NCBI GenBank assembly: GCA_938048165.1
Contig: CALIBP010000035.1
Coordinates: 1 to 51,568, forward strand
Reading direction: 5' to 3'
Origin: an uncultured Alphaproteobacteria bacterium
Lineage (GTDB): Bacteria; Pseudomonadota; Alphaproteobacteria; MPNO01; UBA2964
Length of the DNA: 51,568 nucleotides
Shown: positions 18,174 to 44,294 of the stretch, piece after piece
Position numbering within the stretch: the first letter of the stretch is position 1
Layout: each line of letters opens with the position of its first letter
Translations under genes and position numbers: made by a program
Notes under the pieces: generated by a model
Told to the model about the DNA's origin: nothing
Database searches by the model: none
Seen by the model: the letters and a program-made list of their open reading frames with translations, nothing else

Positions 18174-18261
18174 AGTCTCATAATAACAGATGATCTGTGG
18201 AAGGGGAGTTGAAACCAAGCCTTTCCCCGTCCACACTGCGGCCAAACAACGACAAAGTCAT

Positions 18262-18265
18262 GGAG
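18262..18265 (+). promoter_or_regulatory. Ribosome-binding site fixing the start at 18272
   Basis: GGAG lies six bases before the ATG at 18272, favouring it over ATGs at 18260 and 18269. Confidence 0.6.
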
Positions 18266-18271
18266 TTAATG

Positions 18272-26966: not shown

Positions 26967-26983
26967 GTTCAAAATTTCCTTTC

Positions 26984-27086: not shown

Positions 27087-28949
27087 TCAATTCAACGAGG
27101 TGTGCACATCCACTAACGCGACACCGCCTTTTTCGACGACATCGGCGGCGCGTTGGAAGGCGCCGGCGAGGTCTTTGGGATCGCGCACCGGCTCTTCCGC
27201 CCACGCACCATAACCGCGCGCAACTGTGCAGTAATCCGGTTCCGGTCCAACCATCCGCTGGCCGATCCAGGCGTTTTCTGGAGGTCGGCCACGACGATAA
27301 GCGAGGCTGATCTGATGTTCTTCGTCATTACCGAACGAGGTGTTGTTGTGCAGCACGATCATGATTGGAATTTTGTAATGAACGGCGGTCCAGATCGCGG
27401 CAGGTCCCATGGTGAAATCGCCATCGCCAATGATGGCGACGGTAAATTTGCCTTGATCGCGACCAGCGAGGGCTGAACCGATGATGCCACCGGGACCGTA
27501 ACCGATGCCGCCACCGATGGAGTTCGACATAAACTGTCCGGCACCGTCGAATTCCCAGAGCCCATCATACCAGGCGCGATAGTTGCGCGCGGCGAGCAGC
27601 CAGTCTTTATCCTTCACGGCATTGAACAGTTCTGAGGTCATGCGCGGCAGATAGATCGGCACCTGATCCCATTTGGCTTTCATGGCGTCAGTCTGGCTTT
27701 TACGCAGTTCGTCATGCATTTGCGAGATTTCGGCGCGGCGTTCTTCGGCGCGTTTGAGCCAGGCCGGATTGTCGGCGGCACGGCTTTTGACCTCTGCCAG
27801 GACCTGCTTCAACCCATAGAGACCGTCGGCCTGCAGCTGGATATCGACCGGATGCAATGGGCCACCAAGATGGGTCCAGTGCTGGACAGCGAAGTCATTC
27901 AGCGACAGATCAATGACCGTCATCTTGCCGGCATCGACTTCTTCACCAGCGCCCCGCGCCCCTTCATAGGCACCAATGTTATTGGAGATATCGAGACAAT
28001 CGACACACAGAACCGCATCGGTCTTGGCCAACAGCATCTTCTTGTAGGCTCCTTCAGCTTTTGTACGACCGAAGCTGGCATTGAGGTTCTGCGGATGGTT
28101 TGAAGGCATGCAGATAATGTCATGCCCGTCCTGATAGGCAGCCCCCAGCAATTCAACCAGTTCTTTCATGACTGGCGTGGTCTCGGCGTCATAGCCAACA
28201 CGACCACCAAGGATCAGCGGGAAGTCAGCCTCAATCAACGCATCGACAGCGGCGGAAACGGCTTCCGCCGGCGCGGCAACTGGTGCGGCTGGTTGATAGC
28301 GTTGCTCCGTTACTTTCGGCAGTGAAACGCCGTCGGGAATTTCGGCTTCTTGCACCACGACATCGACAGAAACATATGTTGGAGAGCAGGGGCCACTGGT
28401 GGCGATACGCTGGGCGCGGGCGATTGAATCGAGGCAACCCTGCAGGGTGATCGGTTCATCTGTCCATTTGGTAACGTCCTTGACGATATCGCATTGTGTA
28501 TTGGCCGAGTGAATCCAGTCGGTCTTGCGACGGTGTGCCGGGTCTGCGGGGCCGGAACCTCCGAGAACGACAACCGGCATACGATCAGCCATCGCATTGT
28601 AGAAAGCCATGGTGGCGTGTTGGACTCCGACGAGGTCATGCAGGAAGGCCATGGCTGGACGACCGGTTGCCTTGCAATAGCCATGCGCCATCGCGACCGC
28701 GATTTCTTCATGCGCGACGAGAATGATTTGAGGCTTGTGGTTTTTGGTGTGGTTGACCAGTGAGTCATGGACTCCGCGAAAGGATGAGCCCGGTGTCAGG
28801 AAGATGTAGTCATGTCCGAGCTCGCCGATTAGCTCGGCAATCATATCCGAGCCATATTCGGCCTTGGGCTGGTTGGCGGGCAAATTGATGGGTGTTTCCG
28901 TCGCAAAGTCGGGGGCAGCCGGATAGTTGTTATTGATTTCGTCGCTCAT
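27087..28949 (-). CDS. ThDP-dependent enzyme, acetolactate synthase / decarboxylase-like
   Basis: A 620-aa thiamine-diphosphate enzyme of the POX/ALS/benzoylformate-decarboxylase superfamily. The catalytic glutamate is Glu81 (VAHEEIAVAMAHGY); the diphosphate/metal motif starts with GDGD at about 508 and ends with HNN. The middle FAD/structural domain is present. The start at 28949 (MSDEINNNY) follows GGGAGA. Such enzymes decarboxylate 2-oxoacids or condense them; which reaction applies cannot be told here. It is the only one of the six ThDP genes on the minus strand, leading toward the two OCD genes. Confidence 0.9.
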   Translation of the reverse strand: MSDEINNNYPAAPDFATETPINLPANQPKAEYGSDMIAELIGELGHDYIFLTPGSSFRGVHDSLVNHTKNHKPQIILVAHEEIAVAMAHGYCKATGRPAMAFLHDLVGVQHATMAFYNAMADRMPVVVLGGSGPADPAHRRKTDWIHSANTQCDIVKDVTKWTDEPITLQGCLDSIARAQRIATSGPCSPTYVSVDVVVQEAEIPDGVSLPKVTEQRYQPAAPVAAPAEAVSAAVDALIEADFPLILGGRVGYDAETTPVMKELVELLGAAYQDGHDIICMPSNHPQNLNASFGRTKAEGAYKKMLLAKTDAVLCVDCLDISNNIGAYEGARGAGEEVDAGKMTVIDLSLNDFAVQHWTHLGGPLHPVDIQLQADGLYGLKQVLAEVKSRAADNPAWLKRAEERRAEISQMHDELRKSQTDAMKAKWDQVPIYLPRMTSELFNAVKDKDWLLAARNYRAWYDGLWEFDGAGQFMSNSIGGGIGYGPGGIIGSALAGRDQGKFTVAIIGDGDFTMGPAAIWTAVHYKIPIMIVLHNNTSFGNDEEHQISLAYRRGRPPENAWIGQRMVGPEPDYCTVARGYGAWAEEPVRDPKDLAGAFQRAADVVEKGGVALVDVHTSLN

Positions 28950-29280
28950 GATGTCTCCCTGGATGGGCTTTAGGGTGCCCGGTTTCAAGTTTGCGGCAGC
29001 TTATCTGGCAGATGGGCTTTGGCAAAGGGGCAGGGCGGCAATGTTGGGATAAATTTTGGGTGCACAGCCAAGAATTTTTATATTCATCAAATCAATTTAC
29101 TTCATAATCTTTATCAATTTGATTTATTACTATGCGGGCTTAGGCTGCTGGTTGAAATAACCGCTTAACCGCGCTGAACCTTATTTCTGTGCTGGTCTAG
29201 ACGCCGTGCCCTTTGTCGATAACAATGGGTGAATAATACAAATAACAGGTTCCACAGGGACCTGGCTGGGAGAATGACTG
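28950..29280. promoter_or_regulatory. Divergent intergenic region between two ThDP genes
   Basis: A 331-base gene-free region, AT-rich in its middle (about 29065-29130). It contains the palindrome ATCAATTTGAT at 29113-29123, a candidate operator. Near the plus-strand gene, CAGGTTCC/GGGACCTG (29246-29264) can form an RNA hairpin just before the ribosome-binding site. The two divergent promoters must lie here. I found no convincing -10/-35 pair and no small ORF. Confidence 0.5.
29246..29264 (+). promoter_or_regulatory. Leader hairpin before the ribosome-binding site
   Basis: CAGGTTCC pairs with GGGACCTG (one G-U pair) around an ACA loop. It ends four bases before the GGGAGAA ribosome-binding site (29268-29274). 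It could modulate translation of the ThDP gene at 29281, though the length is also consistent with chance. Confidence 0.3.
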
Positions 29281-31002
29281 ATGCCAACAAAGACGCTCAA
29301 AAACGTAACCGTCGCTGACGCCTATCTGGCAGTCCTGGCAGATCGTGGTGTTGATTATTTGTTCGCCAATGCCGGTACGGATTTTGCACCGCTAATTGAA
29401 GCGCTGGCTAAGGCTCAGGCGCTCGGGACACCACATCCGCATCCGGTGACCTGCCCGCATGAAAACACCGCCCAGCATATGGCGATTGGCTATTACCTCG
29501 CGACCGGACGGCCGCAGCTGACAATGATGCATGTCAATGTCGGGACGGCGAACGCAATGAATGGTTTGTTGAATGCGTCACGGGGCCAGACGCCGATGCT
29601 GTTTACGGCTGGCCGGACACCGACTAACGAAGACAAGCTTAAAGGCCATCGCTCACTCGATATCCACTGGACCCAGGAAATGTTCGATCAGGGCGGCATG
29701 ACTCGCGAGGCCGTTAAATGGGATTATGAACTCCGCAATGGCGAGCAGGTCGAAACTGTTGTTGACCGGGCTTTGAGCGTGATGATGAGTGACCCCAAGG
29801 GACCGGCCTATCTGTCTTTGCCGCGCGAAGTTCTGGCAATTGAAATGGATGAGTTCGAATTTGAGTCACCCGGTCGTATTCAGCCGGCATCACCAAGTCT
29901 GCCGAATGCTGATGCGCTGGATGAAGCGGCCTCGATACTGGCCAAGGCCAAGAACCCCGTCATCATTACCAACTGGGCCGGTCGCAATCCCAATGTAATG
30001 CCGGCGCTGGTTGACCTGGCGGACAAGTACGCCATTCCGGTGGTTGAGTATCGTAACCGGTTTGTCGCGATGCCGCGTCGTCATCCGATGTTTGCCGGTG
30101 GCAATCCTAACCCGTTTGTCGAAGCAGCTGATGCCATCCTGGTGATCGATTCAGCGACACCGTGGCTGCCATCGCAGGTTTCACCGTCGGACGATTGCAA
30201 GGTCATTCATCTGGCACCCGACCCGCATTACAGCTATCTGCCGATTCGCGGTTTCCGGGCCGATATTGCGCTGGCCTGTGATAGCGCACTTGGGCTCGTG
30301 GCCCTCAATGCCGGGATGGATGAACCTTCGAAATCAAATCAGGCAGCCATCGACAGCCGCCGCAAGACGGTTACGGCGCTGCATGAAGAGTTGGAAGAGA
30401 GCTGGGCCAAGAAGCTACAGGACGTAAAGGACCAGACACCAATCCATCCGGCGTGGATATCAGACTGCATCGCCAAGATCAGCGATGCCGATACGATCTT
30501 CGCCAAGGAATCCCAGCTTCAGGTTCAGTATCTCGATACCTCCAAGCCGACCAAGATTCTCAATGCCGGTGCGTCATCCGGGTTGGGTCACGGCATGGGT
30601 GTGGCGCTTGGCGCCAAGCTCGCCAATCGGGACAATCTGGTGATCGGCACCCATGGCGACGGTTCCTATATGTTTAACGTTCCTGTTTCAGCGCATTACG
30701 TTGCCGCAGAGCAGGAATGTCCAATCCTCACCGTCGTGTTCAATAACCAGAAATGGCAGGCCGTGCGCGGGTCGGCGCTGGGTCTGCACCCCGATGGTTA
30801 TGCCGCGAAGGCCAACCGTCCACCGCTTATGTATTTCACGGTTGATCAGCATTATGAAAAGCTGGTGGAGGTTTCCGGCGGCTATGGCGAGCAGGTCACC
30901 GATCCGAAGGATATGCTGCCAGCACTGGAACGCGCTGTGAAAGAGGTTATGGTCAATAAACGGTCGGCGTTGCTGAACGTTATGGCATCCGATCCGACTT
31001 AA
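29281..31002 (+). CDS. ThDP-dependent enzyme, benzoylformate decarboxylase-like
   Basis: A 573-aa ThDP-dependent enzyme. The proton-relay glutamate is Glu61 (CPHENTAQHMAIGY) and the cofactor-binding motif GDGS...NN begins at about 459, with the tail NNQKWQAVR. It is the shortest and most divergent of the six ThDP proteins here; the N-terminal PYR domain segment reads FANAGTDFAPLIEAL instead of NPGASYRGLHDS. Start ATG with GGGAGAA six bases upstream. It opens the long plus-strand run, 30 bases before the hydroxyacid oxidase. The 2-oxoacid substrate is unknown. Confidence 0.9.
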   Translation: MPTKTLKNVTVADAYLAVLADRGVDYLFANAGTDFAPLIEALAKAQALGTPHPHPVTCPHENTAQHMAIGYYLATGRPQLTMMHVNVGTANAMNGLLNASRGQTPMLFTAGRTPTNEDKLKGHRSLDIHWTQEMFDQGGMTREAVKWDYELRNGEQVETVVDRALSVMMSDPKGPAYLSLPREVLAIEMDEFEFESPGRIQPASPSLPNADALDEAASILAKAKNPVIITNWAGRNPNVMPALVDLADKYAIPVVEYRNRFVAMPRRHPMFAGGNPNPFVEAADAILVIDSATPWLPSQVSPSDDCKVIHLAPDPHYSYLPIRGFRADIALACDSALGLVALNAGMDEPSKSNQAAIDSRRKTVTALHEELEESWAKKLQDVKDQTPIHPAWISDCIAKISDADTIFAKESQLQVQYLDTSKPTKILNAGASSGLGHGMGVALGAKLANRDNLVIGTHGDGSYMFNVPVSAHYVAAEQECPILTVVFNNQKWQAVRGSALGLHPDGYAAKANRPPLMYFTVDQHYEKLVEVSGGYGEQVTDPKDMLPALERAVKEVMVNKRSALLNVMASDPT

Positions 31003-31032
31003 GAAACAAGACAAAAAATTATTAATTAGGGG

Positions 31033-32133
31033 ATGACGTCGTTGGACGAGTTTTCGACATTGCAACAAATCGCGGTTCGCGCGCGCAGAAATCTGAACTG
31101 GGATGTTTGGGATTATCTCATGGGCGGATCCGAGACCGAGACCAGCCTGAAACGCAATCGGCAGGGCTTCGATTCGCTGGGGCTGGCACCGCGAATTTTG
31201 CGCAATGTCGCCAATGTTGATCCCTCGACCACATTCCTGGGAAAACAAATCCGTCTGCCAGTGATGCTGGCACCCATCGGCTCTTTGCAACTGGTCACGC
31301 CTGATGGCGGATTAGCGTCGGCGCAAGCAGCAGCAGAAGCAGGAACAATAAGCTTCTTGAGCTCTGTGACCCAGCCGGAGATGGAAGAAGTAGGACCGGC
31401 AACCAATGCCCCCAAGGTTTTTCAGCTCTATGTCAAAGGCGATGATGACTGGATCGACGAGCAGGTTAAACGGGCTATAGACTCCGGCTTTGAGATTTTC
31501 TGTCTGACGGTAGATACGGCGCTCTATAGCCGCCGTGAACGGGATATACTCAAGCGCTGGGAACCAAGCTCCAGACGCGCCGTCGTCGAAGGCGCGGATC
31601 AGGATTATCTCGCGATGTTGAACTGGGATACCGTCAAACGGTTCAAGGACCGCCATGATATTCCGCTTATCCTCAAAGGGATCGGAACTGGCGAGGACGC
31701 AACAATAGCGCTCGAGCATGGCGTCGAGTGCATTTACGTTTCAAATCATGGTGGTCGCCAGCTTGATCACGGGCGCGGGTCGATTGATGTCCTGCCGGAA
31801 GTCGTTGAAGCCGTAAACGGCAAAGCGAGCGTCCTGGTTGATGGCGCGATCATGCGTGGAACTGACGTTATTAAGGCGCTGGCCCTCGGCGCAGACGCGG
31901 TTTGTATTGGCAAATTACAGGGGCTGGGGTTGGCCGCCGGTGGCAAGGACGGGCTGGTTCATACGCTTCGTCTACTGGAAGAAGAAATACGGACCTCGAT
32001 GGCCCTGTTGGGACTACATAATTTTTCAGAATTGGATGCCAGCTTTGTGGAAGAGGTCGAACCTTTGATGCCGGCACACCAGACATCACCTTACACACAC
32101 ATAGAACTAGAAGAGCGGGAGTATGAAAGATGA
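31033..32133 (+). CDS. FMN-dependent alpha-hydroxyacid oxidase/dehydrogenase
   Basis: A 366-aa TIM-barrel flavoprotein of the lactate/glycolate/mandelate oxidase family, which oxidises 2-hydroxyacids to 2-oxoacids. The catalytic His239 and following Arg are in SNHGGRQLDH; the flavin-binding VLVDGAIMRGTD follows. The usual FMN-phosphate region GRP(F/Y) is here GKLQGLGLAAGG. The start at 31033 sits directly after AGGGG; TTG at 31042 has a better-spaced site and is an alternative. It overlaps the next ThDP gene by four bases (ATGA), suggesting that oxidation and decarboxylation of the same carbon chain are coupled. Confidence 0.92.
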   Translation: MTSLDEFSTLQQIAVRARRNLNWDVWDYLMGGSETETSLKRNRQGFDSLGLAPRILRNVANVDPSTTFLGKQIRLPVMLAPIGSLQLVTPDGGLASAQAAAEAGTISFLSSVTQPEMEEVGPATNAPKVFQLYVKGDDDWIDEQVKRAIDSGFEIFCLTVDTALYSRRERDILKRWEPSSRRAVVEGADQDYLAMLNWDTVKRFKDRHDIPLILKGIGTGEDATIALEHGVECIYVSNHGGRQLDHGRGSIDVLPEVVEAVNGKASVLVDGAIMRGTDVIKALALGADAVCIGKLQGLGLAAGGKDGLVHTLRLLEEEIRTSMALLGLHNFSELDASFVEEVEPLMPAHQTSPYTHIELEEREYER

Positions 32134-33929
32134 GCGATATCAAGGCACATGACCGCCCGGTCAATCTCGGTAATCCGCAGATGGGTTGGGCCAGTGATGT
32201 TGCAGCAGAAATGCTGCGGCAGTTGGGAATAAAATATATTTCCCTGAACCCGGGGGCGAGTTATCGCGGGCTTCACGACTCCATCGTCAACTATCTCGGC
32301 AATGATACGCCGCAGATGTTGATCTGCCTGCATGAAGATCATGCCGTACACGTTGCGCAGGGCTATGCAAAAGCAACCGGCGAACCGATGGCTTGTGCGC
32401 TGCATTCCAATGTTGGTCTGATGCATGGTCTGATGGCGACCTTCAATGCCTGGTGTAACCGGGCACCGATGATCATGATGGGGGCAACGGGGCCAATTGA
32501 TGCGCCGCTACGCCGCCCGTGGATTGACTGGATTCATACGGCAAAGGATCAGGGCGCCTTATTGCGGGATTACACAAAGTGGGATGACGAGCCCCGTTCG
32601 CCCGGCGCCATTGTGGAAACAATGTTGCGGGCCAACCAGATGGCGCGTTCAGAACCACCGGGACCGGTTTATGTCTGTCTTGATGCCGGATTGCAGGAAG
32701 CTGCGCTTGATGAGGAAATCAAGATACCCGATGTCAGTCGTTTCCAGCCTTCTCAACCGCCACGGGCGTCGGCTGACAATGTCAAGGAAGTTGCCGACAT
32801 GCTGCTTGGAGCCACTAGCCCAGTCATTATGATTGGCCGCAGCGGACGCTCCCAGGAAGCCTGGGACAACCGGATCAAACTGGCAGAACTTGTGGGCGCT
32901 GGCGTCTTCACCAATCTGCGGAATGCAGCAGTTTTTCCTAGCGACCATCTGCTGCATGTCGGACGACCTGCCGGTCGGATTACCGACGTAATGCGCAGCA
33001 CGGTCACCGAAGCCGATGCTATCCTCAGCCTGAACTGGCTGGACTTTGGCGGGACGCAACGTTTGTTGACCCGCGATGGCGAGCTTAAAGGCAAGATCGT
33101 CCATTGTTCGATGGAAGAATATGTCCATAACGGGTGGGGCGGTGAGCTGTTCGAACTCCCGATGGCTGATATCAAAATTACGGCTGATCACGATGCTTTT
33201 GTGGTGCAGCTGATCGAAGAAATTGAAAGCCGTGGCGGCGAAGCAAAATGGGACGGCAAACGCGTCGGCCCTGAACCAGCCGCTTATGAAAAGATTGCTG
33301 ATCGCGACCCGAACAGCGTCTTGCAGCCTGCGGATATCGTGACGGCTCTGGCTGAGGCGCAGGGTGATCGCAAGATTAGTCTCAACCGGGTGAGTTCCGG
33401 TGGCGTCGGTCCGGCCTATCACTTCACAGCCCCCTTGTCCTATCTCGGACATGATGGCGGCGGCGGACTGGCCTCCGGCCCGGGCACTTCAGTCGGGGCC
33501 GCGCTGGCGGTCATGGATACAGACTGGTTGCCGGTGTCGGTTCTCGGTGATGGCGATTTCATGCAGGGCAACACAGCTCTGTGGACGGCCGCGAAATACG
33601 AAATCCCGATGCTGGTGATTATTTCCAATAACCGCTCGAACTTTAACGATGAGCTTCATCAGGAAACTGTTGCCAAAGATCGTGACCGTCCGGTTGAAAA
33701 TCGCTGGATCGGTATGCGGATTAGTGAGCCGGATATCAATTTAACGGAGCTTGCTGAATCTCTCGGATTTGAGGCTGTTGGCCCGGTGGAGACGGCTGGT
33801 GAGCTTTTGGAAGCGATTGAAAATGGGCTGAAGGCTGTTGAAGCCGGCGGTCAGCATTTCATCAATGTGCATGTAGATACCGGCTATGCCGAACCGCCGC
33901 TGATGCGTGGCGGGAGCAAGGGCGAGTAA
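32130..33929 (+). CDS. ThDP-dependent enzyme (paralogue pair 1, first)
   Basis: A 599-aa ThDP enzyme with Glu69 (CLHEDHAVHVAQGY) and GDGDFMQG at about 473, ending the motif at SNN. The PYR-domain signature LNPGASYRGLHDSIVNY is shared with the following paralogues. Its ATGA overlap with the alpha-hydroxyacid oxidase gene argues that it decarboxylates the oxidase's 2-oxoacid product, as benzoylformate decarboxylase does after mandelate dehydrogenase. The C-terminal residues are INVHVDTGYAEPP. It is closest by eye to the next gene. Confidence 0.9.
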   Translation: MSDIKAHDRPVNLGNPQMGWASDVAAEMLRQLGIKYISLNPGASYRGLHDSIVNYLGNDTPQMLICLHEDHAVHVAQGYAKATGEPMACALHSNVGLMHGLMATFNAWCNRAPMIMMGATGPIDAPLRRPWIDWIHTAKDQGALLRDYTKWDDEPRSPGAIVETMLRANQMARSEPPGPVYVCLDAGLQEAALDEEIKIPDVSRFQPSQPPRASADNVKEVADMLLGATSPVIMIGRSGRSQEAWDNRIKLAELVGAGVFTNLRNAAVFPSDHLLHVGRPAGRITDVMRSTVTEADAILSLNWLDFGGTQRLLTRDGELKGKIVHCSMEEYVHNGWGGELFELPMADIKITADHDAFVVQLIEEIESRGGEAKWDGKRVGPEPAAYEKIADRDPNSVLQPADIVTALAEAQGDRKISLNRVSSGGVGPAYHFTAPLSYLGHDGGGGLASGPGTSVGAALAVMDTDWLPVSVLGDGDFMQGNTALWTAAKYEIPMLVIISNNRSNFNDELHQETVAKDRDRPVENRWIGMRISEPDINLTELAESLGFEAVGPVETAGELLEAIENGLKAVEAGGQHFINVHVDTGYAEPPLMRGGSKGE

Positions 33930-33952
33930 CGGGAAGGTATAGGAGAAAGATA

Positions 33953-35743
33953 ATGGCTGATTTAACCAAATTTGACCGACCCGTTAATGTCGGCAATCCC
34001 AAGATGGGATGGGCCAGCGATGTCGCAGCGGAAATGCTGCGCCGTATGGGTATTAAATATCTGTCGATGAATCCCGGGGCGAGCTATCGCGGGTTTCATG
34101 ACTCAATCGTCAACTATCTCGGCAATGACGATCCGCAGATGATCCTGTGTCTGCATGAGGATCACGCGGTTCATATTGCGCAGGGCTATGCGAAGGCAAC
34201 GGATGAGCCGATGGGCTGTATTCTGCATTCGAATGTCGGGCTGATGCACGGTATGATGGGTATCTTTAACGCCTGGTGTAACCGGGTGCCGATGGTCATC
34301 ATGGGGGCCACCGGCCCCGTCGATGTGATGAAACGTCGTCCGTGGATTGACTGGATTCATACCGCTAAAGATCAGGGTGCCTTGATCCGTAATTTCGTCA
34401 AATATGATGACGAGCCGCGGTCTGCCCAAGCGCTTGCCGAAACCATGGTGCGGGTGAACAAGACCATTCGGACCGCGCCGACGGCGCCGGCCTATGTGTG
34501 TCTGGATGCTGGTCTGCAGGAATCAGAGATCGATCCGGACATGAAACTGCCGGATGTGTCGCGCTTCCTGCCGCCACCACCGACTCCGGCCCCACAGCAA
34601 AGTATCGATGAAGCGGCTGATCTTCTGGCAAATGCCAAGAGACCGGTCATCATGATGGGGCGTCTTAAACGCCACGAGAAAGGCTGGGCCGATCGTATCA
34701 AGCTAGCCGAGCTTCTCGGCGCTGGCGTTGTCACAGACATGAAAACCGGGATCGCTTTTCCAACCGACCATGCGTTGCACCTCGCGCCACCAGCTAACCG
34801 TCCCCGCGATGAAGCTGTCGCGGAGATGAAAGAAGCCGACGTCATTCTCGATCTGAACTGGGTCGATCTGGCCGGGACCTTCAAGCTTGTCTTCGGCAGG
34901 GATGATGTGAATGCCAAGGTCATTCATGTATCGATGGATTCAATTATCCATAATGGTTGGACAACCGATCATATGGGAATGCCCCTTGGTGACGTGACCA
35001 TGCTGGCCGAGCCGGAACCGGTAGTTGAACAGCTTCTGGAAGCGTTAGACAAACGGCTTGGTGGCAAGTCCAAGTGGGATGGTGAGAACAAAGGTCGTTC
35101 GCCTGAGCCTGACACGACCTATGACATGCTGAACCAGGACGATAACATATCAGTTGAAGCGGTTACACTTTGCATGAATGAAGTCCGCAAAGGCCGCAAC
35201 ATCACCTTGACCAATGTCACCATTGGCTGGGCGGCAGATGGGTATCACTTCACCCATCCGCTGGATTATCTCGGTAATGATGGCGGCGGCGGACTGGCGT
35301 CCGGTACTGGCACGGCCATCGGCGGCGGTTTGGCTCTCGCTGATACGGATCGTACGGTTGTTGCCGTGCTTGGCGATGGTGACACCATGCAGGGCGCGTC
35401 GTCGCTTTGGACTGCGGCGCATTACAGCATTCCGGTGTTGTTCGTGATCTCGAATAACCGGTCCAACTTTAATGATGAAATCCATCAGGAAACGGTCGCG
35501 ATCGCACGGAACCGGCCTGTTGAAAATCGCTGGATTGGTCAGCGGATCGACGACCCGTCAGTGTCGATTGAAAAATACGCAGCGTCTTTGGGTGTTGAAT
35601 CCGCTGGGCCGATCGAGAAAATCGCCGATCTTGTGCCGGCCCTGGAGAAAGCGCTCAAGGTGGTTGAATCCGGTAAGCCTTATCTGCTTAACGTCCATGT
35701 TGAGAAGGGCTATGCGGTACCGCCGCCGGCTCGTGAAGCGTAA
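33953..35743 (+). CDS. ThDP-dependent enzyme (paralogue pair 1, second)
   Basis: A 596-aa near-copy of the preceding protein: shared GNPKMGWASDVAAEML, NPGASYRGFHDSIVNY, Glu69 (CLHEDHAVHIAQGY) and GDGDTMQG at about 474. An AGGAGA site precedes the ATG at 33953. The middle domain and residues after the cofactor motif are alike, yet identity is clearly below 100 percent, so it is an old duplication with probable substrate divergence, or the two form a heteromer. Its stop overlaps the start of the YCII gene (TAATG). Confidence 0.9.
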   Translation: MADLTKFDRPVNVGNPKMGWASDVAAEMLRRMGIKYLSMNPGASYRGFHDSIVNYLGNDDPQMILCLHEDHAVHIAQGYAKATDEPMGCILHSNVGLMHGMMGIFNAWCNRVPMVIMGATGPVDVMKRRPWIDWIHTAKDQGALIRNFVKYDDEPRSAQALAETMVRVNKTIRTAPTAPAYVCLDAGLQESEIDPDMKLPDVSRFLPPPPTPAPQQSIDEAADLLANAKRPVIMMGRLKRHEKGWADRIKLAELLGAGVVTDMKTGIAFPTDHALHLAPPANRPRDEAVAEMKEADVILDLNWVDLAGTFKLVFGRDDVNAKVIHVSMDSIIHNGWTTDHMGMPLGDVTMLAEPEPVVEQLLEALDKRLGGKSKWDGENKGRSPEPDTTYDMLNQDDNISVEAVTLCMNEVRKGRNITLTNVTIGWAADGYHFTHPLDYLGNDGGGGLASGTGTAIGGGLALADTDRTVVAVLGDGDTMQGASSLWTAAHYSIPVLFVISNNRSNFNDEIHQETVAIARNRPVENRWIGQRIDDPSVSIEKYAASLGVESAGPIEKIADLVPALEKALKVVESGKPYLLNVHVEKGYAVPPPAREA

Positions 35744-36189
35744 TGTGTCCGGTGGATAGTGGAGATGACCTGGGTAAGCGGGCTTTGGCCCGCGAACAGG
35801 TCTATCTCTGCATTATGACCAATGTTGAGCCGCCTCCCGAGGGCAAGGCACCGCGCGAAACACTGATGCATGATCACAAAACCTATCTTCGTGATCTGGA
35901 ACGCAAAGGGTTGTTGTTCGGGGCAGGGCGGTTGTTCAATGAGGAGGAAAACGAGCATGCCGAGATCGGTCACGGCATGATCGTGATCCGTGCTAAAACC
36001 CGGGCCGAAGCCGAAGCAATTGCCTTTGAAGAACCCTTCACCAAGGCAGGTTATCGCACGATGGTCCTGCATCCGTGGCAACGGAACGAAGGCAGCGTCG
36101 ATATTTCCATTCGCTTGATGGATTCGGTGCTTGAGATCGATAGCCGGACGTATGATTTGGTGCCTCGTGATGGTGCAGTTCGAACCTGA
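35743..36189 (+). CDS. YCII-family protein
   Basis: A 148-aa protein with a YCII-like ferredoxin-fold domain in its middle: KTYLRDLERKGLLFGAGRLF, HGMIVIRAKTRAEAEAIAFEEPF, and AGYRTMVLHPW. YCII proteins are small alpha-beta barrels often linked with enzymatic removal of reactive intermediates, but no catalytic role is established. The ATG overlaps the preceding ThDP gene stop (TAATG), suggesting coupling. An internal start at 35815 (MTNVEPPPEG) would still keep the whole domain and cannot be excluded. Confidence 0.75.
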   Translation: MCPVDSGDDLGKRALAREQVYLCIMTNVEPPPEGKAPRETLMHDHKTYLRDLERKGLLFGAGRLFNEEENEHAEIGHGMIVIRAKTRAEAEAIAFEEPFTKAGYRTMVLHPWQRNEGSVDISIRLMDSVLEIDSRTYDLVPRDGAVRT

Positions 36190-36260
36190 GGTCTGAGCGA
36201 GCAAGTTTTGATTATGCGACCGAATTAAAGCGGGTCGTGTTGTAAAGAAGGTGATTTAAC

Positions 36261-38036
36261 ATGAGTGACGGCGAGCCAATTCGCAAAGCCAATACCCGGT
36301 ATCAGTCCGACATCATTGTCGACATGATCAAACTCTATGATTTTCCGGCGATTCCACTGAATCCGGGTGCCAGCTACCGGGGGCTGCACGATAGCCTGGT
36401 CAATTATGGTGAAAACGATCCGCCGATGATCCTGTGTAATCATGAGAAAATCGCCATTCAAATCGCCCACGGTTACACCAAGGCCACCGGCAAGCCGATG
36501 GCGGCTGCGGTTCATAATGTGGTTGGCCTGTTGCATGCACCACTGGCAGTTTATTACGCCTATATCGATCGCTGCCCGGTCTTCCTGATTGGGGCAACCG
36601 GCCCGATGGATGAGAAACTGCGTCGTCCGTTCATCGACTGGATTCATACCGCCTTTGCGCAAGGGTCGGCGGTGCGCGACTTTACAAAATGGGATTACCA
36701 GCCCGGTAGTGTGCATGGCATTCCGGATTCATTCGCCCGCGCCTATTCGATCATGATGACTGAACCGCAGGGCCCGGTTTACATGGTTTATGACGCCGGC
36801 ATTCAGGAAGCAGAGCTGACAGAGAATATCCAGATTCCGTCAGACGATGCTGTGAAGGTTCCGCCACGTCTCGCTGCTGATCCCAAGCTGATTGACGAGG
36901 CTGCTGAAATGCTGCTGGCCGCTGATTATCCGGTCCTGTTGACCGAATATGCCGCGCGTGCACCGATTGGCTTCGATGACACCGTCAAGCTGGCCGAGAC
37001 TGTCGGCTCAGCGGTCTTTGATATTAACAAGCGGCTGGGCTTCCCAAACCGGCATCCACTCAACGTTTCCATGCATGCCGATGCTTTCAAGGGTGCCGAC
37101 TTGGTAATGGCCCTTGATGTTATTGACTGGACGCGCGGGTCACACAAACCGAACTGGGAAACCCGTGAAGTCGAAGCGGTGACAACACCAGACTGCAAAT
37201 GGATCGATATTGGGTTCGCGGATATTGAAATCAGCAAATGGGCCACCGATTACAACAAGCATCACAACTGGGACATGCGGATTCTGGCCGATACTGCCAA
37301 TGCGATCCCTGCCCTGAACGAGGCCTGTATTGCCCGCATTAAGGATGACGACAAGCTGGCTGCGCGCATCGTCGAGCGGACCAAAGAAGTTGGTGAGAAA
37401 CATACGGCGCAGTGGGGAAAATGGCAGGAACAGGTCAAAGACACCTGGGACCAGATGCCGATGCACGAAGCCCGCATGGCGACGGAAGTCTGGGAAGCCA
37501 TCAAGGATGAAGATTGGGTTCTGACGGCGGGTACGTTGAAAGACTGGGTCCGCAAGGTCTGGAACTTTGACAAGCCTTATCAGCATCCCGGTCGAGATCT
37601 CGGCACCGCGACGCAGTTCGGTATCTCAATGGGTGTTGCTTACGCCTATAAAGACACTGACAAGCTGGTCGTTGATCTGCAGCCTGATGGCGATTTGATG
37701 TTTGACCTCGGTGCCATGTGGGTCGCCGCCAAATATGAAATCCCGATGCTGGTCATCATGTACAATAACCGTGCTTATTATAACGACTGGGCGCATCAGA
37801 TTTCGGTCGCCAACAAACGCGGTACCGATCCGGATCGTGCCTATATCGGTATGGACCTTGAAGGTCCGGAACCGGACTTCGCCCATATTGCCAAGGGAAT
37901 GGATTGGTATGCCGAGGGACCGATCTTTGATCCCAAGGAAATCGGTCCGGCAGTTGCGCGTGGTATCGAGCAGGTCAAAAAAGGCAAGCCTGCTCTGATT
38001 GATGTCATTACCTGGCGGCGCGGCGAGGCGGCCTAG
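36261..38036 (+). CDS. ThDP-dependent enzyme (paralogue pair 2, first)
   Basis: A 591-aa ThDP enzyme with Glu62 (CNHEKIAIQIAHGY) and the PYR signature LNPGASYRGLHDSLVNY. The cofactor motif reads QPDGDLMF at about 474-481: Pro stands where the first Gly of the usual GDGD is found, while the Asp and Gly that contact metal and phosphate are kept, as is the ending YNN. The same change occurs in the paralogue at 39067, so it is a subfamily feature. AAGAAGGTG precedes the ATG. It is followed by a DUF3891 gene. Confidence 0.9.
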   Translation: MSDGEPIRKANTRYQSDIIVDMIKLYDFPAIPLNPGASYRGLHDSLVNYGENDPPMILCNHEKIAIQIAHGYTKATGKPMAAAVHNVVGLLHAPLAVYYAYIDRCPVFLIGATGPMDEKLRRPFIDWIHTAFAQGSAVRDFTKWDYQPGSVHGIPDSFARAYSIMMTEPQGPVYMVYDAGIQEAELTENIQIPSDDAVKVPPRLAADPKLIDEAAEMLLAADYPVLLTEYAARAPIGFDDTVKLAETVGSAVFDINKRLGFPNRHPLNVSMHADAFKGADLVMALDVIDWTRGSHKPNWETREVEAVTTPDCKWIDIGFADIEISKWATDYNKHHNWDMRILADTANAIPALNEACIARIKDDDKLAARIVERTKEVGEKHTAQWGKWQEQVKDTWDQMPMHEARMATEVWEAIKDEDWVLTAGTLKDWVRKVWNFDKPYQHPGRDLGTATQFGISMGVAYAYKDTDKLVVDLQPDGDLMFDLGAMWVAAKYEIPMLVIMYNNRAYYNDWAHQISVANKRGTDPDRAYIGMDLEGPEPDFAHIAKGMDWYAEGPIFDPKEIGPAVARGIEQVKKGKPALIDVITWRRGEAA

Positions 38037-38117
38037 GAATTTTCTGGCCGTTCCAGCGTCGTTGGGACAGAATAATCACGCGTTGAGTGCGTCCCGTTAA
38101 CCGAGGAGGGTTCAGCC

Positions 38118-38960
38118 ATGATGATTCAGAATGCGCCAGACGGTGAACCGCGATTTGTTAGCCTGATGGCCGAGCATAACGAGCTGTGTGAACAGTTTGC
38201 CCGCGCCTTTGGCAATGACCGGTTTGAAAAACCCGACCCGTTTGAGGAAACCATCTATGTTATCGGCCATCATGACCGCGGCTGGGACAAGTTTGATGCC
38301 AGCCCGGTGCTTGATCCGGTCAGCGGTTTTCCCACCGGTGTTGGCGGCGCCAAAGGGCCGGGTGGGGCCGCAACCACCAAACTGTCACCGGACTTTAATC
38401 AAGCACGCCATGATTATTGCGGCCTGTTGGCTTCAATGCATACCTGGGGGCTGTATCACGCGCGCTATGGCTTCTCGGATTTTCGGGTGCGGCCCGGCGG
38501 GTCGACGTCAGTGCCGATCTCACCGGAGATGGCCGACGAAACCAATGAAATCCTTGAAGCGGAGATAGCGCGACAGGAGGCTCTGAAAGCCAAACTTGCG
38601 AGCGATCCTGCAACAGCAAGCTGGGTCGAGGAAGACAGATTGTTCCAAAATTACAAGCTGCTGCAGTTTTGCGACACGCTGGCGCTCTATTTCAACCTGC
38701 GGCACGAAAGTGATCGGGTCGCCGAGGTCTTTACCCACGTCCCGGAGTCCGCAAGCAGTGATACCTCCGTTACCGTAACACCAGAGGGCAACAGTACTTA
38801 TTCATTTGCGCCGTTTCCCTTTGCAGGTGACAGTCTCGAAATTCGATCAAAAGGCCGTTATTTGACGGCGATGCCCGGCGATGCGGCACCAGACGATCTT
38901 GGTGCCCATATTGCAGCGCTGCCTGCAGAAGAGCAGGTTTTTACTTTCGTTACTACCTGA
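38118..38960 (+). CDS. DUF3891-family protein
   Basis: A 280-aa protein matching the DUF3891 pattern: IGHHDRGWDKFDASPVLDP near residues 49-67 and a mostly helical body with a His-Asp-rich N-terminal region. The HHDRGW stretch resembles HD-type metal sites, so a hydrolase role is possible but unproven. The family has no established function. A GAGGAGGG site precedes the ATG. It lies between two ThDP enzymes on the same strand, suggesting a function tied to them. Confidence 0.75.
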   Translation: MMIQNAPDGEPRFVSLMAEHNELCEQFARAFGNDRFEKPDPFEETIYVIGHHDRGWDKFDASPVLDPVSGFPTGVGGAKGPGGAATTKLSPDFNQARHDYCGLLASMHTWGLYHARYGFSDFRVRPGGSTSVPISPEMADETNEILEAEIARQEALKAKLASDPATASWVEEDRLFQNYKLLQFCDTLALYFNLRHESDRVAEVFTHVPESASSDTSVTVTPEGNSTYSFAPFPFAGDSLEIRSKGRYLTAMPGDAAPDDLGAHIAALPAEEQVFTFVTT

Positions 38961-38983
38961 ACAGACCGGCCCGAAAAAATTTA

Positions 38984-39010
38984 GCGCTGGTGGGCTGGTC
39001 CCACCCGCGC
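38984..39010. other. Hairpin upstream of the last ThDP gene
   Basis: GCGC-T-GGTGGG pairs with CCCACC-C-GCGC around a CTGGT loop, with one T/C mismatch. No T-run follows. It lies after the DUF3891 stop and may mark a processing site or attenuator before the ThDP gene at 39067. Confidence 0.4.
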
Positions 39011-39066
39011 CTGGCTGCTAATTTCAGGTGACAATTTTCAACAGCTTAAAAGATAAGGGACGGCTC

Positions 39067-40851
39067 ATGAGCGAGGGCGGCATCAAAAAATCAAACGTCA
39101 AATACCAGTCAGACGTCATAGTCGATCTGATCAAGGATTTTGGCTTCAAACATATCGCGCTTAATCCGGGGGCTAGCTATCGCGGGCTGCATGACAGCTT
39201 GGTCAATTACGGCGAAAACGATCCGCCGATGATGCTCTGCACCCATGAAAAGATCGCGGTGCAGATGGCGCATGGTTATGCCCGCGCCACTGGCGAGCCG
39301 ATGATCGCCATTGTTCATAACCTAGTCGGGCTGCTGCACGCGCCAATGGGCGTCTATTATGCCTATCTCGATCGCGCGCCCGTCTTCATAATTGGTGCCA
39401 CCGGGCCGGTTGCTGAACCGAAACGCCGCCCGTTTATTGACTGGATTCATTCCGCGAACGTTCAGGGACAAATTCTGCGCGACTTCGTCAAATGGGATGC
39501 TCAGCCCAACACGATTGACTATGTGCCGGATGCCTTTGCACGCGCCTATTCCGTTATGATGACGGCGCGCCAGGGACCAATTTATATGTGCTATGACGCC
39601 GGGTTGCAGGAAGCCGAGCTGGATCATGAAATCCACATGCCGCCGAAGTCAGCGGCGCGGGTGCCAGCACAGGCAGCCCCCGATCCGACGGCGCTTGGTG
39701 AGGCGGCAGAGTTGCTGGCCAAGGCCGAACGTCCGGCGATTGTCGCGGACTTCGCCGCGCGACCACCGCATGGCTGGGATCATGTAATCGATATTGCGGA
39801 AACACTGGGTGCCAGCGTGTGGGATGTAAACTCGCGTCTCAACTTCCCCGGCAATCATCCACTCAATCTCTCAATGGATCAGCAGGCCTGCTACGAGGAT
39901 GTGGATTGCGTATTGCTGCTCGACGTTGCCGACTTCGAAAAACATACCCATGTCCGTGATATTTCGACCCGGTCGGTAAAACCATCGGTTAAAGAAGACG
40001 CCAAATGGATTGATATTGGCTGGACCGATACCGAAATCAGCAAATGGTCGATGGATTATTCGCGAACCCTGTTTCCAGATGTCCGGATGACCGCCGATGT
40101 TGTGACGGCAACACCGATGCTCACCGAGCTGATGAAAGGCCATATCGCCAACACGGATGGGCTGGCCGAAAAGATCGCCAAACGGACCGAGCTTATCCAC
40201 GAGAAACATCACAAAATCCGCGCGCAATGGCGCAAGGAAGCTGAAGAAGATTGGGATTCTCAGCCAATGACGGTGGGTCGTCTGGCGCTTGAAACCTGGG
40301 AAGTCATCAAGGATGAAGACTGGGTTCTGACAGCAGGCACGATGCATGATGCCGCACGCCGGCTGTGGGACTTTGACCGTCCGTATTGCCATGGTGGCCG
40401 CGAGCTCGGTACCGGCACCCAGATCGGTACCTCACTCGGGGTCGCATTGGCCAATAAAGGCACCGGTCGTCTCTGCATCAATATGCAGCCAGATGGCGAT
40501 TTGATGTTCGATGCTGGTGCCTTGTGGATGGCGGCCAAGTACGAAATTCCGATGCTTATCGTGATGTACAACAATCGCGCTTACTACAATGACTGGAACC
40601 ATCAGATCGTGATCGCCAATAACCGTGGCACCGATCCGAGCCGCGCCTATATCGGCATGGATTTGCTCGATCCCGATCCAGACTTCGCCGGTCTGGCACG
40701 TTCGCAGGGCTGGTGGGCGGAAGGCCCGATTGAGAATGGTGACGATGTGCAAGGGGCCTTACGTCGGGCCATCGAACAGGTCAAAAAGGGCAAGCCCGCT
40801 CTTGTCGATACTGTCTGCATGCGCGGTAAGGGTAAAGCAGCACTGACGTAA
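39067..40851 (+). CDS. ThDP-dependent enzyme (paralogue pair 2, second)
   Basis: A 594-aa paralogue of the protein at 36261: Glu61 (CTHEKIAVQMAHGY), NPGASYRGLHDSLVNY, and the same QPDGDLMF variant at about 474-481. Both share the RAYYNDW tail after YNN and the GTDP-RAYIGMDL segment. The ATG at 39067 follows AAGGGA and is preferred over GTG at 39028. It ends the ThDP run and is followed by an intrinsic terminator. Its substrate is likely close to that of its partner. Confidence 0.9.
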   Translation: MSEGGIKKSNVKYQSDVIVDLIKDFGFKHIALNPGASYRGLHDSLVNYGENDPPMMLCTHEKIAVQMAHGYARATGEPMIAIVHNLVGLLHAPMGVYYAYLDRAPVFIIGATGPVAEPKRRPFIDWIHSANVQGQILRDFVKWDAQPNTIDYVPDAFARAYSVMMTARQGPIYMCYDAGLQEAELDHEIHMPPKSAARVPAQAAPDPTALGEAAELLAKAERPAIVADFAARPPHGWDHVIDIAETLGASVWDVNSRLNFPGNHPLNLSMDQQACYEDVDCVLLLDVADFEKHTHVRDISTRSVKPSVKEDAKWIDIGWTDTEISKWSMDYSRTLFPDVRMTADVVTATPMLTELMKGHIANTDGLAEKIAKRTELIHEKHHKIRAQWRKEAEEDWDSQPMTVGRLALETWEVIKDEDWVLTAGTMHDAARRLWDFDRPYCHGGRELGTGTQIGTSLGVALANKGTGRLCINMQPDGDLMFDAGALWMAAKYEIPMLIVMYNNRAYYNDWNHQIVIANNRGTDPSRAYIGMDLLDPDPDFAGLARSQGWWAEGPIENGDDVQGALRRAIEQVKKGKPALVDTVCMRGKGKAALT

Positions 40852-40875
40852 GGTCGCGAGTAACGGCTATTTAAG

Positions 40876-40904
40876 AAAGGGCAGGATTTAAACTCTGCCC
40901 TTTT
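40876..40904 (+). terminator. Intrinsic terminator
   Basis: AAAGGGCAG pairs with CTGCCCTTT around a ten-base loop, followed by a short T-run ending the stem (TTTT). It lies just after the last ThDP gene. Confidence 0.85.
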
Positions 40905-41024: not shown

Positions 41025-43361
41025 ATGGTTGAGAAGTTTGGTGTTGGGCAGCCGGTCCCGCGTTTTGAAGACCCGCGTTTATTGACCGGTGGCGGCAAGT
41101 ATATGGACGACAACCAACTGCCAAATGAGACAAAAGCCTATATTCTGCGCTCGCCTTATGCCCATGCAAAAATCAATTCCATGGACATCACGGCTGCCAG
41201 GCAGGCGCCGGGTGTTGTCGAGATTTTGACTGGACAGGATTATGTCGATGATGGTCATGGTGAGCTCAAATGTTCGCCGGTTCAGAAACAGCGCGATGGC
41301 TCGCGGATGTTTGAGCCTGACAATCCGCCGTTGGTGCTCGATGCCGTCAAAATGGTCGGCGATTATGTCGCTATGATTATTGCAGAGACACAGGATCAGG
41401 CAAAAGACGCTGCCGAGCTGATTGAAGTTGATTACGAGCCGCTTCCTGCCGTTTCGCTGCCGTTTCCGGCATCGCGGCCAGATGCGCCTAAAGTCTGGGA
41501 GGAACACGACAGCAATATCTGCTTTGTGCATACAGTCGGTGACAAAGCGGCGACCGATGCGGCCTTTGAGCGCGCGGCGACGATTGTCGGTGGTGAGCTG
41601 CCGGTAAATCGTAGCGCCCATGTCACGATGGAACCGCGTGGGGCGATTGGTGATTACAATCAGGGCTCAGGCATGCTGACGCTCTATACCGGCGTGCATT
41701 ATCCGTGGCAGCTCCGCGAAGAACTCGCGGGGAAGATCTTCAATATGCCGGAAACCAAAGTGCGGGTTGTTGCCGGTGATATGGGCGGCAGCTTTGGTCT
41801 GCGTGGCGGTACCTATCGCGAGCATGTGCTGGTAAGCTGGGCTGCTTTGCGTATTGGCCGCCCGGTGAAATGGGTTTGCGAGCGGTCCGAAGGATTTATG
41901 AGCGATCATCAGGGGCGTGATGTCTACTGGGACGCTGAAATTGCGCTCGATGAAAACGGTAAATTCCTGGCTGTTCGAGCTACGAGCTTTGCCAATGTCG
42001 GGGCCTATCTCGCAAGCAAAGGCACGCTGCCACCGGTTGCCAATCTAGGCACCATGGCGGGGACCTATGATATCCCGGCAATGTATGTTGATGTCTCGGC
42101 GGTCTTTACCAATACCAATCCGATCTGCCCATTCCGGGGCAATGGGCGTCCGGAAGCCTCGTATGTCATTGAGCGTTTGATTGATCTCGCGGCAGACGAA
42201 ACCGGTATTGATCCGGCGGAGCTGCGGCGTATCAACCAGATTCCTCCGGAGTCCATCCCCTATAAAACGGCGCTGACCTTTACCTATGACAGCGGCAATT
42301 TTGGCGACAATCTCGAGAAAACACTGGAGATGGTCGATTATGATGGTTTCCTGGCCCGTCGCGAGCAGTCCAGAGCAAATGGCAAACTGCGCGGGATCGG
42401 ACTTTCCAACAGTATCGAACGTGCGGCGGCCGCCAGTATTGAGCAGGTGGAAATCCGCTTTAATCCCGGCGGCACAGCAACGCTTTATGCCGGCACCAGC
42501 CAGCAGGGGCAGGGGCATGAGACTATCTTCAAACAGATTATGTGCGAGAAGCTGGGCCTCGATCCCTATGAGGTCGGTTTCAATGAGGGCGATACATCGA
42601 TCCTCGCCTTTGGTGGGGGTACCGGCGGCTCCCGGTCGGCGACGCTAGGCGGTAGTGCGGTTCTTGGCTGCTCTGACAAGATTATCGAGAAAGCAACCAA
42701 GCTTGCGGCGCATCTTCTGGAAGCAGCGGATGCTGATATTGAATTCGCCGATGGCACATTCGTCGTAGCCGGTACTGACAAGACCATCAGCCTGACCGAA
42801 GTCGCGCAGGCCAGTTACAAGCCAGGTCGGACGCCGCCTGATATGGAGCCTGGTCTCGGCGCGATCTTTACCTATGAGGCCCCGAAGGAGAATTTCCCCA
42901 ATGGTTGTCACGCCTGTGAGGTCGAGATCGACCCCGAAACCGGTGTGATCGAAATCGTCAGCTATAAGGTCGTTGATGACGTTGGTACGGTGTTGAATCC
43001 GCTGACCCTGAAGGGTCAGATTATGGGCGGTGTTGCTCATGGTATTGGGCAGGCGTTGCTTGAGGAAATTCAGTTTGATGCTGATAGTGGCCAGCTGGTG
43101 ACGGGTTCCTTCATGGATTACACGATGCCGCGAGCCGATAATATGAGCTACATCGATGTGGTGAGTAACCCGTGCCCGACGGCGACCAACCCCCTTGGTT
43201 GCAAAGGGGCAGGCGAGGCCGGCACCGTTGGTGCAGTGCCCTGTGTCATGAACTCGGTCGTTGATGCGCTGTCAGAATATGGCATTCGTCATATTGATAT
43301 GCCGGCGACTCCCGCAAAGATCTGGGCGGCTATTCAGGCAGCGAAGAAAGCGGCGGCGTAA
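41025..43361 (+). CDS. CoxL-like molybdenum hydroxylase large subunit
   Basis: A 778-aa protein of the xanthine oxidase/CO-dehydrogenase large-subunit family, which binds the molybdopterin cofactor. Seen are GGSFGLRGG at about 254-262, the active-site loop PFRGNGRPEA at 369-378 and the catalytic glutamate Glu731 (KGAGEAGTVGAVP). The loop lacks the AYxCSFR motif of true CO dehydrogenase and differs from the form II AYRGAGR, so it is a related hydroxylase of unknown substrate. No FAD-binding or 2Fe-2S subunit gene is in the window. An ATG with GGAGCAAGA upstream starts it. Confidence 0.9.
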   Translation: MVEKFGVGQPVPRFEDPRLLTGGGKYMDDNQLPNETKAYILRSPYAHAKINSMDITAARQAPGVVEILTGQDYVDDGHGELKCSPVQKQRDGSRMFEPDNPPLVLDAVKMVGDYVAMIIAETQDQAKDAAELIEVDYEPLPAVSLPFPASRPDAPKVWEEHDSNICFVHTVGDKAATDAAFERAATIVGGELPVNRSAHVTMEPRGAIGDYNQGSGMLTLYTGVHYPWQLREELAGKIFNMPETKVRVVAGDMGGSFGLRGGTYREHVLVSWAALRIGRPVKWVCERSEGFMSDHQGRDVYWDAEIALDENGKFLAVRATSFANVGAYLASKGTLPPVANLGTMAGTYDIPAMYVDVSAVFTNTNPICPFRGNGRPEASYVIERLIDLAADETGIDPAELRRINQIPPESIPYKTALTFTYDSGNFGDNLEKTLEMVDYDGFLARREQSRANGKLRGIGLSNSIERAAAASIEQVEIRFNPGGTATLYAGTSQQGQGHETIFKQIMCEKLGLDPYEVGFNEGDTSILAFGGGTGGSRSATLGGSAVLGCSDKIIEKATKLAAHLLEAADADIEFADGTFVVAGTDKTISLTEVAQASYKPGRTPPDMEPGLGAIFTYEAPKENFPNGCHACEVEIDPETGVIEIVSYKVVDDVGTVLNPLTLKGQIMGGVAHGIGQALLEEIQFDADSGQLVTGSFMDYTMPRADNMSYIDVVSNPCPTATNPLGCKGAGEAGTVGAVPCVMNSVVDALSEYGIRHIDMPATPAKIWAAIQAAKKAAA

Positions 43362-43370
43362 GCGTCTTCT

Positions 43371-44294
43371 ATGCCGATCGAGAAATCGGTTTCTATCGGC
43401 GAGGGTGACAATAGTCTTTTCGGCACGTTAACCCTTCCGGAAGGGACGAGCCGTTTTGACGCCGTCCTGATCTGGTCAGGGTCTGGGCCAACGGACCGGG
43501 ACGGCAATTTTTCGGGACATAACAATAATTGCCTTGAGATGGTCGCGCATGGCTTGGCGGCCGCCGGCTATGCCTCCATTCGGGCCGACAAGCGCGGCAT
43601 CGGTGAAAGTGCTGCAGCGGTATCGAATGAAATTGATCTTCGCTTTGAAACCTATATCGACGATGCGATGCGTTGGGCCGAGTTTCTCAAACAGGTCCCG
43701 GGTGTTCGCCAGGTTTTGCTGTTGGGACACAGTGAAGGAGCCCTTATCCAGACAATGGTCGCACAACACTTCGGTGCGGCCGGATTGGTGCTTGTCGCTG
43801 GAACCGGCTTTAAAGCTGCCGACATTTTACGGCGGCAACTTGCGGCTCCGTCCTTCACGATCCCTGAAAAGCAACTAACAGAAATTCACACAATCCTGGA
43901 TAGTCTGGATGCCGGGGAAATTGTTGATGTTGTTTCTCCCGATCTGGAAGGCCAGTACCGTCCGAGCGTGCAACCCTATTTGATGTCGTGGTTCAAATAT
44001 GATCCGCAGGCTGAGTTGGCTAAAACTGATCTGCCGGTATTGGTCATACAGGGCACAACAGATTTCCAGGTGCTAATGGAGGATGCGGAACGTTTGGCGG
44101 CGGCCCGTCCTGCTATAGAATTGTTGCAAATCGACGGGATGAACCATGTTCTCAAGGAGGCACCGAAAGAGCGGTCTTCCAACTACGCGACTTACGGCAA
44201 ACCTCTGTTGCCGCTGAGCAGCAAATTAATGCCGGCGATTACGGCTTTCTTTGACAAACATGCTCTTTCCGCCGAGGTAGCGAATGATCGCTAG
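43371..44294 (+). CDS. Alpha/beta hydrolase
   Basis: A 307-aa alpha/beta-hydrolase-fold protein. The catalytic triad is visible as Ser121 in the nucleophile elbow GHSEG, probably Asp231 (LPVLVIQGTTDFQV) and His259 (DGMNHVLK). The oxyanion/early part reads WSGSGPTDRDGN. It starts nine bases after the CoxL-like gene, which suggests co-transcription. Candidate reactions include ester or ring cleavage; the substrate is unknown. It is convergent with the oxidase gene at 44295. Confidence 0.88.
   Translation: MPIEKSVSIGEGDNSLFGTLTLPEGTSRFDAVLIWSGSGPTDRDGNFSGHNNNCLEMVAHGLAAAGYASIRADKRGIGESAAAVSNEIDLRFETYIDDAMRWAEFLKQVPGVRQVLLLGHSEGALIQTMVAQHFGAAGLVLVAGTGFKAADILRRQLAAPSFTIPEKQLTEIHTILDSLDAGEIVDVVSPDLEGQYRPSVQPYLMSWFKYDPQAELAKTDLPVLVIQGTTDFQVLMEDAERLAAARPAIELLQIDGMNHVLKEAPKERSSNYATYGKPLLPLSSKLMPAITAFFDKHALSAEVANDR

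Follow-up and report, generated by a model that had tools for sequence, protein, structure and literature searches.

A conserved run of six thiamine diphosphate enzyme genes in an uncultured alphaproteobacterium, with a predicted role in 2-oxoacid decarboxylation

Why should a bacterium carry six thiamine diphosphate (ThDP)-dependent enzymes in less than 14 kb of DNA? We addressed this question in an uncultured alphaproteobacterium (order MPNO01, family UBA2964 in GTDB), for which a stretch of 51,568 nucleotides was analysed (assembly GCA_938048165.1, contig CALIBP010000035.1, positions 1 to 51,568; hereafter, the window). The genome that holds the window (G000) is a fragmented draft assembly of 2.9 Mb in 307 contigs and is 68% complete. 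The six genes, termed here T1 to T6, lie at positions 27087-40851. A first-pass annotation of these letters had noticed the run and had raised the idea of a multi-substrate 2-oxoacid decarboxylation system.

Five of the six enzymes form one subfamily

As that annotation had claimed, all six genes are complete and intact, judged by their open reading frames and Pfam domains. Each product scored above the Pfam cut-offs for both TPP_enzyme_N and TPP_enzyme_C, and each has the catalytic Glu (Glu47 of benzoylformate decarboxylase, BFDC) and a GDG/PDG...NN cofactor motif. With both TPP domains in one chain, the Glu and the DG...N motif, T1-T6 belong to the POX/ALS/BFDC decarboxylase superfamily. T1 is encoded on the minus strand, divergent from T2-T6 on the plus strand. 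Because its orthologues are 620 aa long, T1 probably starts at the ATG near 28949 rather than at the TTG at 28988; for T6, the ATG at 39067 is a more likely start than the GTG at 39028.

It had been left to phylogeny to tell whether the six fall into unrelated clades. In both trees (a 70-row tree and a careful 50-row tree), T1, T3, T4, T5 and T6 formed a single clade, set apart by a long branch from the clade of T2 (support 100/100). Only T2 stands outside, in the separate and widespread PRK08327 (NF006203) family. The clade of five was divided into subclades A (T5 and T6; 100/99), B (T1; 92/99) and C (T3 and T4; 100/100). PRK08327 is the nearest clade to the five among the groups sampled, while the exact sister group is uncertain because of long branches among the ThDP outgroups. 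T2 exceeds the cut-off of the PRK08327 model (658 against 456 bits), whereas T1 and T3-T6 reached only 224-246 bits, and these five pass no NCBIfam model cut-off. The subfamily was found in Pseudomonadota, Actinomycetota, Binatota and Chloroflexota, with at least 580 stretches confirmed. The nearest named relatives among the matches listed are metagenome-assembled genomes labelled Rhodospirillaceae and UBA2964.

The two sibling pairs seen in the first reading are T3/T4 (56% identity) and T5/T6 (57%). T3 and T4 are old duplicates that form separate orthologous groups in the family, while the order's other families have one such copy. T5 and T6 have each been kept as an orthologous group of their own, and their orthologues also stand in tandem on contigs of Candidatus Binatia and Deltaproteobacteria (L042-L045, ~71-74% identity).

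We then aligned 77 subfamily sequences (10 of clade B, 19 of clade C and 48 of clade A). In T6 numbering, R39, H42, E61 (BFDC Glu47), H84 (BFDC His70), R120, R121, W126, H128, E182, D289, D476 and N503 were invariant in all 77; residue 125 was D or E, and the stretch N508-D509-x-x-H512-Q513 was >95% conserved. Outside the cofactor site, most of these residues are absent from T2, BFDC and the genome's own ALS and OXC; H128 aligns opposite BFDC Leu110. The BFDC His70 position is kept in all six T proteins and lost in the genome's ALS and OXC. So many invariant charged residues suggest that the substrate is polyanionic.

The run and its neighbours are conserved

TPP_enzyme_N (PF02776) had 22 matches in G000, representing ~19 distinct genes over 2.9 Mb, of which six lie in the run. 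Under random placement, six ThDP genes would gather in 14 kb with p ~4e-7, a rough estimate. All five G000 matches to the subfamily at E<=1e-60 fall inside this single run. The conservation of synteny is the stronger argument. The run is present in 7/8 other genomes of the genus, with spans of 12.8-13.9 kb, G000 included; no subfamily match was obtained in the remaining genome (1.4 Mb, 71% complete). In the family's other genera, these genes occupy one to three contigs, with T5/T6 sometimes inverted and T1 sometimes elsewhere. The independent neighbours that would mark a chance run were thus not what the relatives have. In two of these, single genes look damaged: the T5 orthologue of G004 is in two pieces, with in-frame stops in one match, possibly through assembly error (L120, 7100-8879), and FMN1 of G011 is seemingly a short remnant between T2 and intact T3 and T4 (L122, 14544-14855).

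In the window, one plus-strand series (29281-44294) comprises T2, FMN1, T3, T4, YCII, T5, DUF3891, T6, a CoxL-like gene and an alpha/beta-hydrolase gene (Table 1). The intergenic gaps are -4 to 173 bp, FMN1 and T3 overlapping by 4 bp. Since genes on the same strand and closely spaced continue to 44294, the block runs past 40851, where the first reading had ended it. The alpha-hydroxyacid oxidase, YCII and DUF3891 neighbours described there were recovered by Pfam at their places. The products of FMN1 and of two further copies, FMN2 and FMN3, have the flavin mononucleotide (FMN)-dependent FMN_dh domain and the catalytic His-Arg (SNHGGR); their function at substrate level is predicted. The nearest solved structures to FMN1 are lactate oxidase, glycolate oxidase and 4-hydroxymandelate oxidase.

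Across the order, an FMN oxidase gene lies <=20 bp from a clade C (T3/T4-type) gene in 18/24 genomes, and a UbiD gene lies within 20 kb of the clade C gene in 20/24. Outside the family, the basic module consists of UbiD genes, a short-chain dehydrogenase (SDR) gene, FMN1 and one T3/T4-type gene (L132, L134, L136), with T2 added once. Genes of the other two clades can adjoin an FMN oxidase gene as well: one of clade B does so in G015, one of clade A in G019. The CoxL-like product has the active-site loop PFRGNGR instead of the AYRCSFR of form I CO dehydrogenase, which argues against a classical CO dehydrogenase; against the curated CoxL model it scored 536 bits (cut-off 991), so that it does not classify as an aerobic CO dehydrogenase.

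Farther afield, we examined 14 annotated plasmid regions, whose homologues are mostly of clade C. The ThDP gene was near an aldehyde dehydrogenase gene in 10/14, near a 2-hydroxyacid oxidase gene in 5/14 and near a phthalate-type Rieske/VanB/Gfo-Idh set in 6/14; in Marinibacterium this set is annotated Pht3/OphA1/Pht4/Pht5. In Neorhizobium petrolearium, a distant host, a homologue keeps company with UbiD and UbiX, the large subunits of two molybdo-hydroxylases and an alpha/beta-hydrolase, largely the set of partners seen in the window. A relative of clade B, in Salipiger abyssi, has two aldehyde dehydrogenase genes and a 2-hydroxyacid oxidase gene on its flanks. At 75 loci outside the family, nearly all of clade A, the commonest neighbours were tripartite tricarboxylate transporter genes. 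In aromatic-acid clusters, a gene annotated nadC (quinolinate phosphoribosyltransferase) is also repeatedly seen close to the plasmid ThDP gene (L139, L143, L148, L153); quinolinate is a phthalate-like dicarboxylate, and therefore the annotation may hide a role in the pathway.

What reaction the cluster may carry out

From these genes and their company, we infer a reaction type, substrates and an order of steps. We consider it fairly probable that this conserved cluster is catabolic and that its T1-T6 enzymes decarboxylate several related 2-oxoacids non-oxidatively. FMN1-3 would oxidize 2-hydroxyacids to 2-oxoacids, and the ThDP enzymes (T1 and T3-T6, together with T2) would convert these to aldehydes and CO2. 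The aldehydes would then be oxidized to carboxylates by the CoxL-like molybdenum hydroxylase (in other hosts, by an aldehyde dehydrogenase), and from these carboxylates UbiD-type enzymes would remove a further carboxyl group to leave the decarboxylated product. The first-pass proposal of a 2-oxoacid decarboxylation system therefore stands as far as linkage goes, and as a function it is plausible. Three features lend moderate support to decarboxylation of 2-oxoacids as the reaction type: the close linkage to FMN 2-hydroxyacid oxidases, the retained His70 and Glu47, and the aldehyde-oxidizing neighbours. The multiple ThDP copies most likely serve multiple side chains, a reading made plausible by three old clades and two old duplications kept intact. 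Judging from the phthalate-type gene contexts, the substrates are probably polar and carboxyl-bearing, most likely aromatic acids such as 2-carboxybenzoylformate-like compounds. A literature search brought up no relevant phthalonate (2-carboxybenzoylformate) decarboxylases and no ThDP genes in phthalate clusters. Isatinate decarboxylation in auxin catabolism is an unproven lead: the papers searched offered no connection with a ThDP enzyme, and the annotations near the plasmid homologues included no isatin hydrolase.

Several observations weigh against the proposed pathway. No biochemically characterised member of the subfamily turned up in searches. BFDC His281 is absent from all six T proteins, and T3-T6 have Ala at the BFDC Ser26 position, where T2 has Thr and T1 has Ser. 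A T3/T4-type gene is found without adjacent FMN1 in 6 genomes of the order, and an FMN oxidase gene was present at only 3/75 of the loci outside the family, which counts against universality. The plasmid regions, the phthalate-type ones included, are partly near-copies of one another. No small or FAD subunit gene was found adjoining the CoxL-like gene. Finally, the predicted structure of T6 (pLDDT 89.8) resembles glyoxylate carboligase, benzaldehyde lyase, 2-hydroxyacyl-CoA lyase and BFDC to much the same degree (16-21% identity); with carboligases and lyases no farther from it than decarboxylases, the fold picks out no single reaction type.

Could the subfamily then consist of ThDP C-C lyases or carboligases, resembling benzaldehyde lyase, 2-hydroxyacyl-CoA lyase or cyclohexane-1,2-dione hydrolase, with the FMN oxidases on a separate branch? 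The last of these enzymes is also among the nearest folds to T6, and the loss of His281 fits as well. However, the FMN 2-hydroxyacid oxidase genes are adjacent, the His70 position is retained, and 27087-46481 yielded neither a CoA ligase nor a CoA transferase gene; we regard this explanation as unlikely. It is less likely still that T3+T4 and T5+T6 are obligate hetero-oligomers, giving fewer activities than genes. Each pair does stay together in the family, and the T5-T6 tandem recurs in the distant contigs mentioned above; yet both partners of each pair retain all catalytic and signature residues, and single-copy homologues of clades C and A are common elsewhere. Pairs of a catalytic and a regulatory subunit were rejected, as neither partner has lost its catalytic residues. 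A chance gathering or a gene-dosage amplification without pathway meaning is very improbable even though T2 comes from another family and the YCII and DUF3891 genes come and go in relatives, since synteny across the family, phylogeny, the random-placement estimate and the long divergence of T3/T4 and T5/T6 into separate orthologous groups all speak against it.

Relation to known systems and other genes of the window

The pathway logic that we propose is already known. In the mandelate pathway, the FMN-dependent mandelate dehydrogenase MdlB, the ThDP-dependent benzoylformate decarboxylase MdlC and the benzaldehyde dehydrogenase MdlD act together. The cluster would share this logic of FMN-dependent hydroxyacid oxidation, ThDP-dependent decarboxylation and aldehyde oxidation. 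What is new here is an uncharacterised subfamily at the centre of a conserved cluster. T1 and T3-T6 form a clade apart from BFDC, with a signature of R, H, D and W residues and the ND-HQ stretch in addition to the Glu47 and His70 positions. None of T1-T6 has the complete BFDC active-site triad (Ser26, His70, His281), and against the curated BFDC model PRK07092 (cut-off 493 bits) they reached only 105-162 bits. The window also differs in its five paralogues and in its links to UbiD and a molybdenum hydroxylase. One clade C protein elsewhere (L149, 7986-9746) is annotated mdlC, a label that is probably over-specific because the subfamily members checked lack BFDC His281.

A second comparison is with the plasmid-borne phthalate 4,5-dioxygenase clusters of roseobacters and related bacteria, in which clade C ThDP genes recur with an aldehyde dehydrogenase or a 2-hydroxyacid oxidase. 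The window differs in having UbiD, TauD-type and molybdenum enzymes, with no Rieske dioxygenase set among the genes scanned. A third is with SAR202, a group that is likewise uncultured and marine and has many oxidative enzymes in paralogous copies, for which a role in using resistant carboxyl-rich or aromatic matter has been proposed (PMC6946804). The expanded families there are different, namely enolase-superfamily racemases, flavin monooxygenases and Rieske dioxygenases, and no mention of thiamine enzymes was found in the text of that paper. Uncultured orders of marine Alphaproteobacteria, including UBA2966, are reported to break down aromatic compounds of humic matter (PMC9789639), which is in keeping with the aromatic substrates proposed here.

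A widespread ThDP subfamily that lies below every curated cut-off can thus be recognised by its signature and divided into three clades, and it has a proposed reaction that can be tested. The cluster offers a concrete hypothesis for carboxyl removal from resistant organic acids by poorly known, mostly marine bacteria, and bears on the open question of which organisms consume carboxyl-rich dissolved organic matter. A bolder proposal, which we put forward as doubtful, is that T1 and T3-T6 are ThDP decarboxylases of a new functional class, acting on polycarboxylated (aromatic) 2-oxoacids, and that together with UbiD and molybdenum enzymes they form a carboxyl-stripping route acting on such matter.

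Table 1. Genes of the ThDP run and its surroundings in the window
Feature	Position	Strand	Evidence and remarks
SDR3, short-chain dehydrogenase	18197..19030	+	Association with UbiD3 in the order's other families
UbiD3, UbiD-family (prenyl-FMN) decarboxylase	19208..20851	+	PF01977; associated with the T3/T4-FMN1 pair throughout the order
Two ornithine cyclodeaminase/mu-crystallin family genes	24113-25255, 25854-26972	-	PF02423; beside T1 across the family
T1, ThDP enzyme, clade B of unnamed subfamily	27087..28988	-	Pfam TPP_enzyme_N/C, trees, 620-aa orthologues
T2, ThDP enzyme, PRK08327 / NF006203 family	29281..31002	+	658 bits vs cut-off 456; separate clade
FMN1, FMN-dependent 2-hydroxyacid oxidase/dehydrogenase homologue	31033..32133	+	PF01070, E 7e-105; SNHGGR motif
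T3, ThDP enzyme, clade C	32130..33929	+	Pfam, trees, residue alignment
T4, ThDP enzyme, clade C	33953..35743	+	Pfam, trees, residue alignment; 56% identity with T3
YCII-domain protein	35743..36189	+	PF03795; at the same position in only some relatives
T5, ThDP enzyme, clade A	36261..38036	+	Pfam, trees, residue alignment
DUF3891 protein	38118..38960	+	PF13030; between T5 and T6 in some relatives, not all
T6, ThDP enzyme, clade A	39067..40851	+	Pfam, trees, residue alignment; 57% identity with T5; model pLDDT 89.8
CoxL/xanthine-dehydrogenase-type molybdenum hydroxylase large subunit, candidate aldehyde oxidase	41025..43361	+	PF01315, PF02738, PF20256
Alpha/beta-hydrolase	43371..44294	+	PF12146/PF12697
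FMN2, second FMN 2-hydroxyacid oxidase homologue	44295..45368	-	PF01070; adjoins the cluster across the family
FMN3, third FMN 2-hydroxyacid oxidase homologue	45411..46481	-	PF01070

Upstream of the run lie three UbiD genes (12700-20851), three SDR genes and several TauD-type dioxygenase genes. UbiD3 scored above the Pfam UbiD cut-off and below that of NCBIfam TIGR00148 (203 vs 245 bits), and genomes of the order hold up to seven strong UbiD3 matches each. Seven TauD/TfdA-family dioxygenase genes (at 5, 915, 9539, 10532, 11435, 17331 and 46648) make this set, spread over 5-18245 and 46648-47742, a second paralogue-rich family beside the ThDP run. The window also encodes nitrile hydratase alpha and beta subunits (1974-3307) and a single 1136-aa protein that combines an MFS transporter, an acyltransferase and an AMP-binding ligase (5476-8886).

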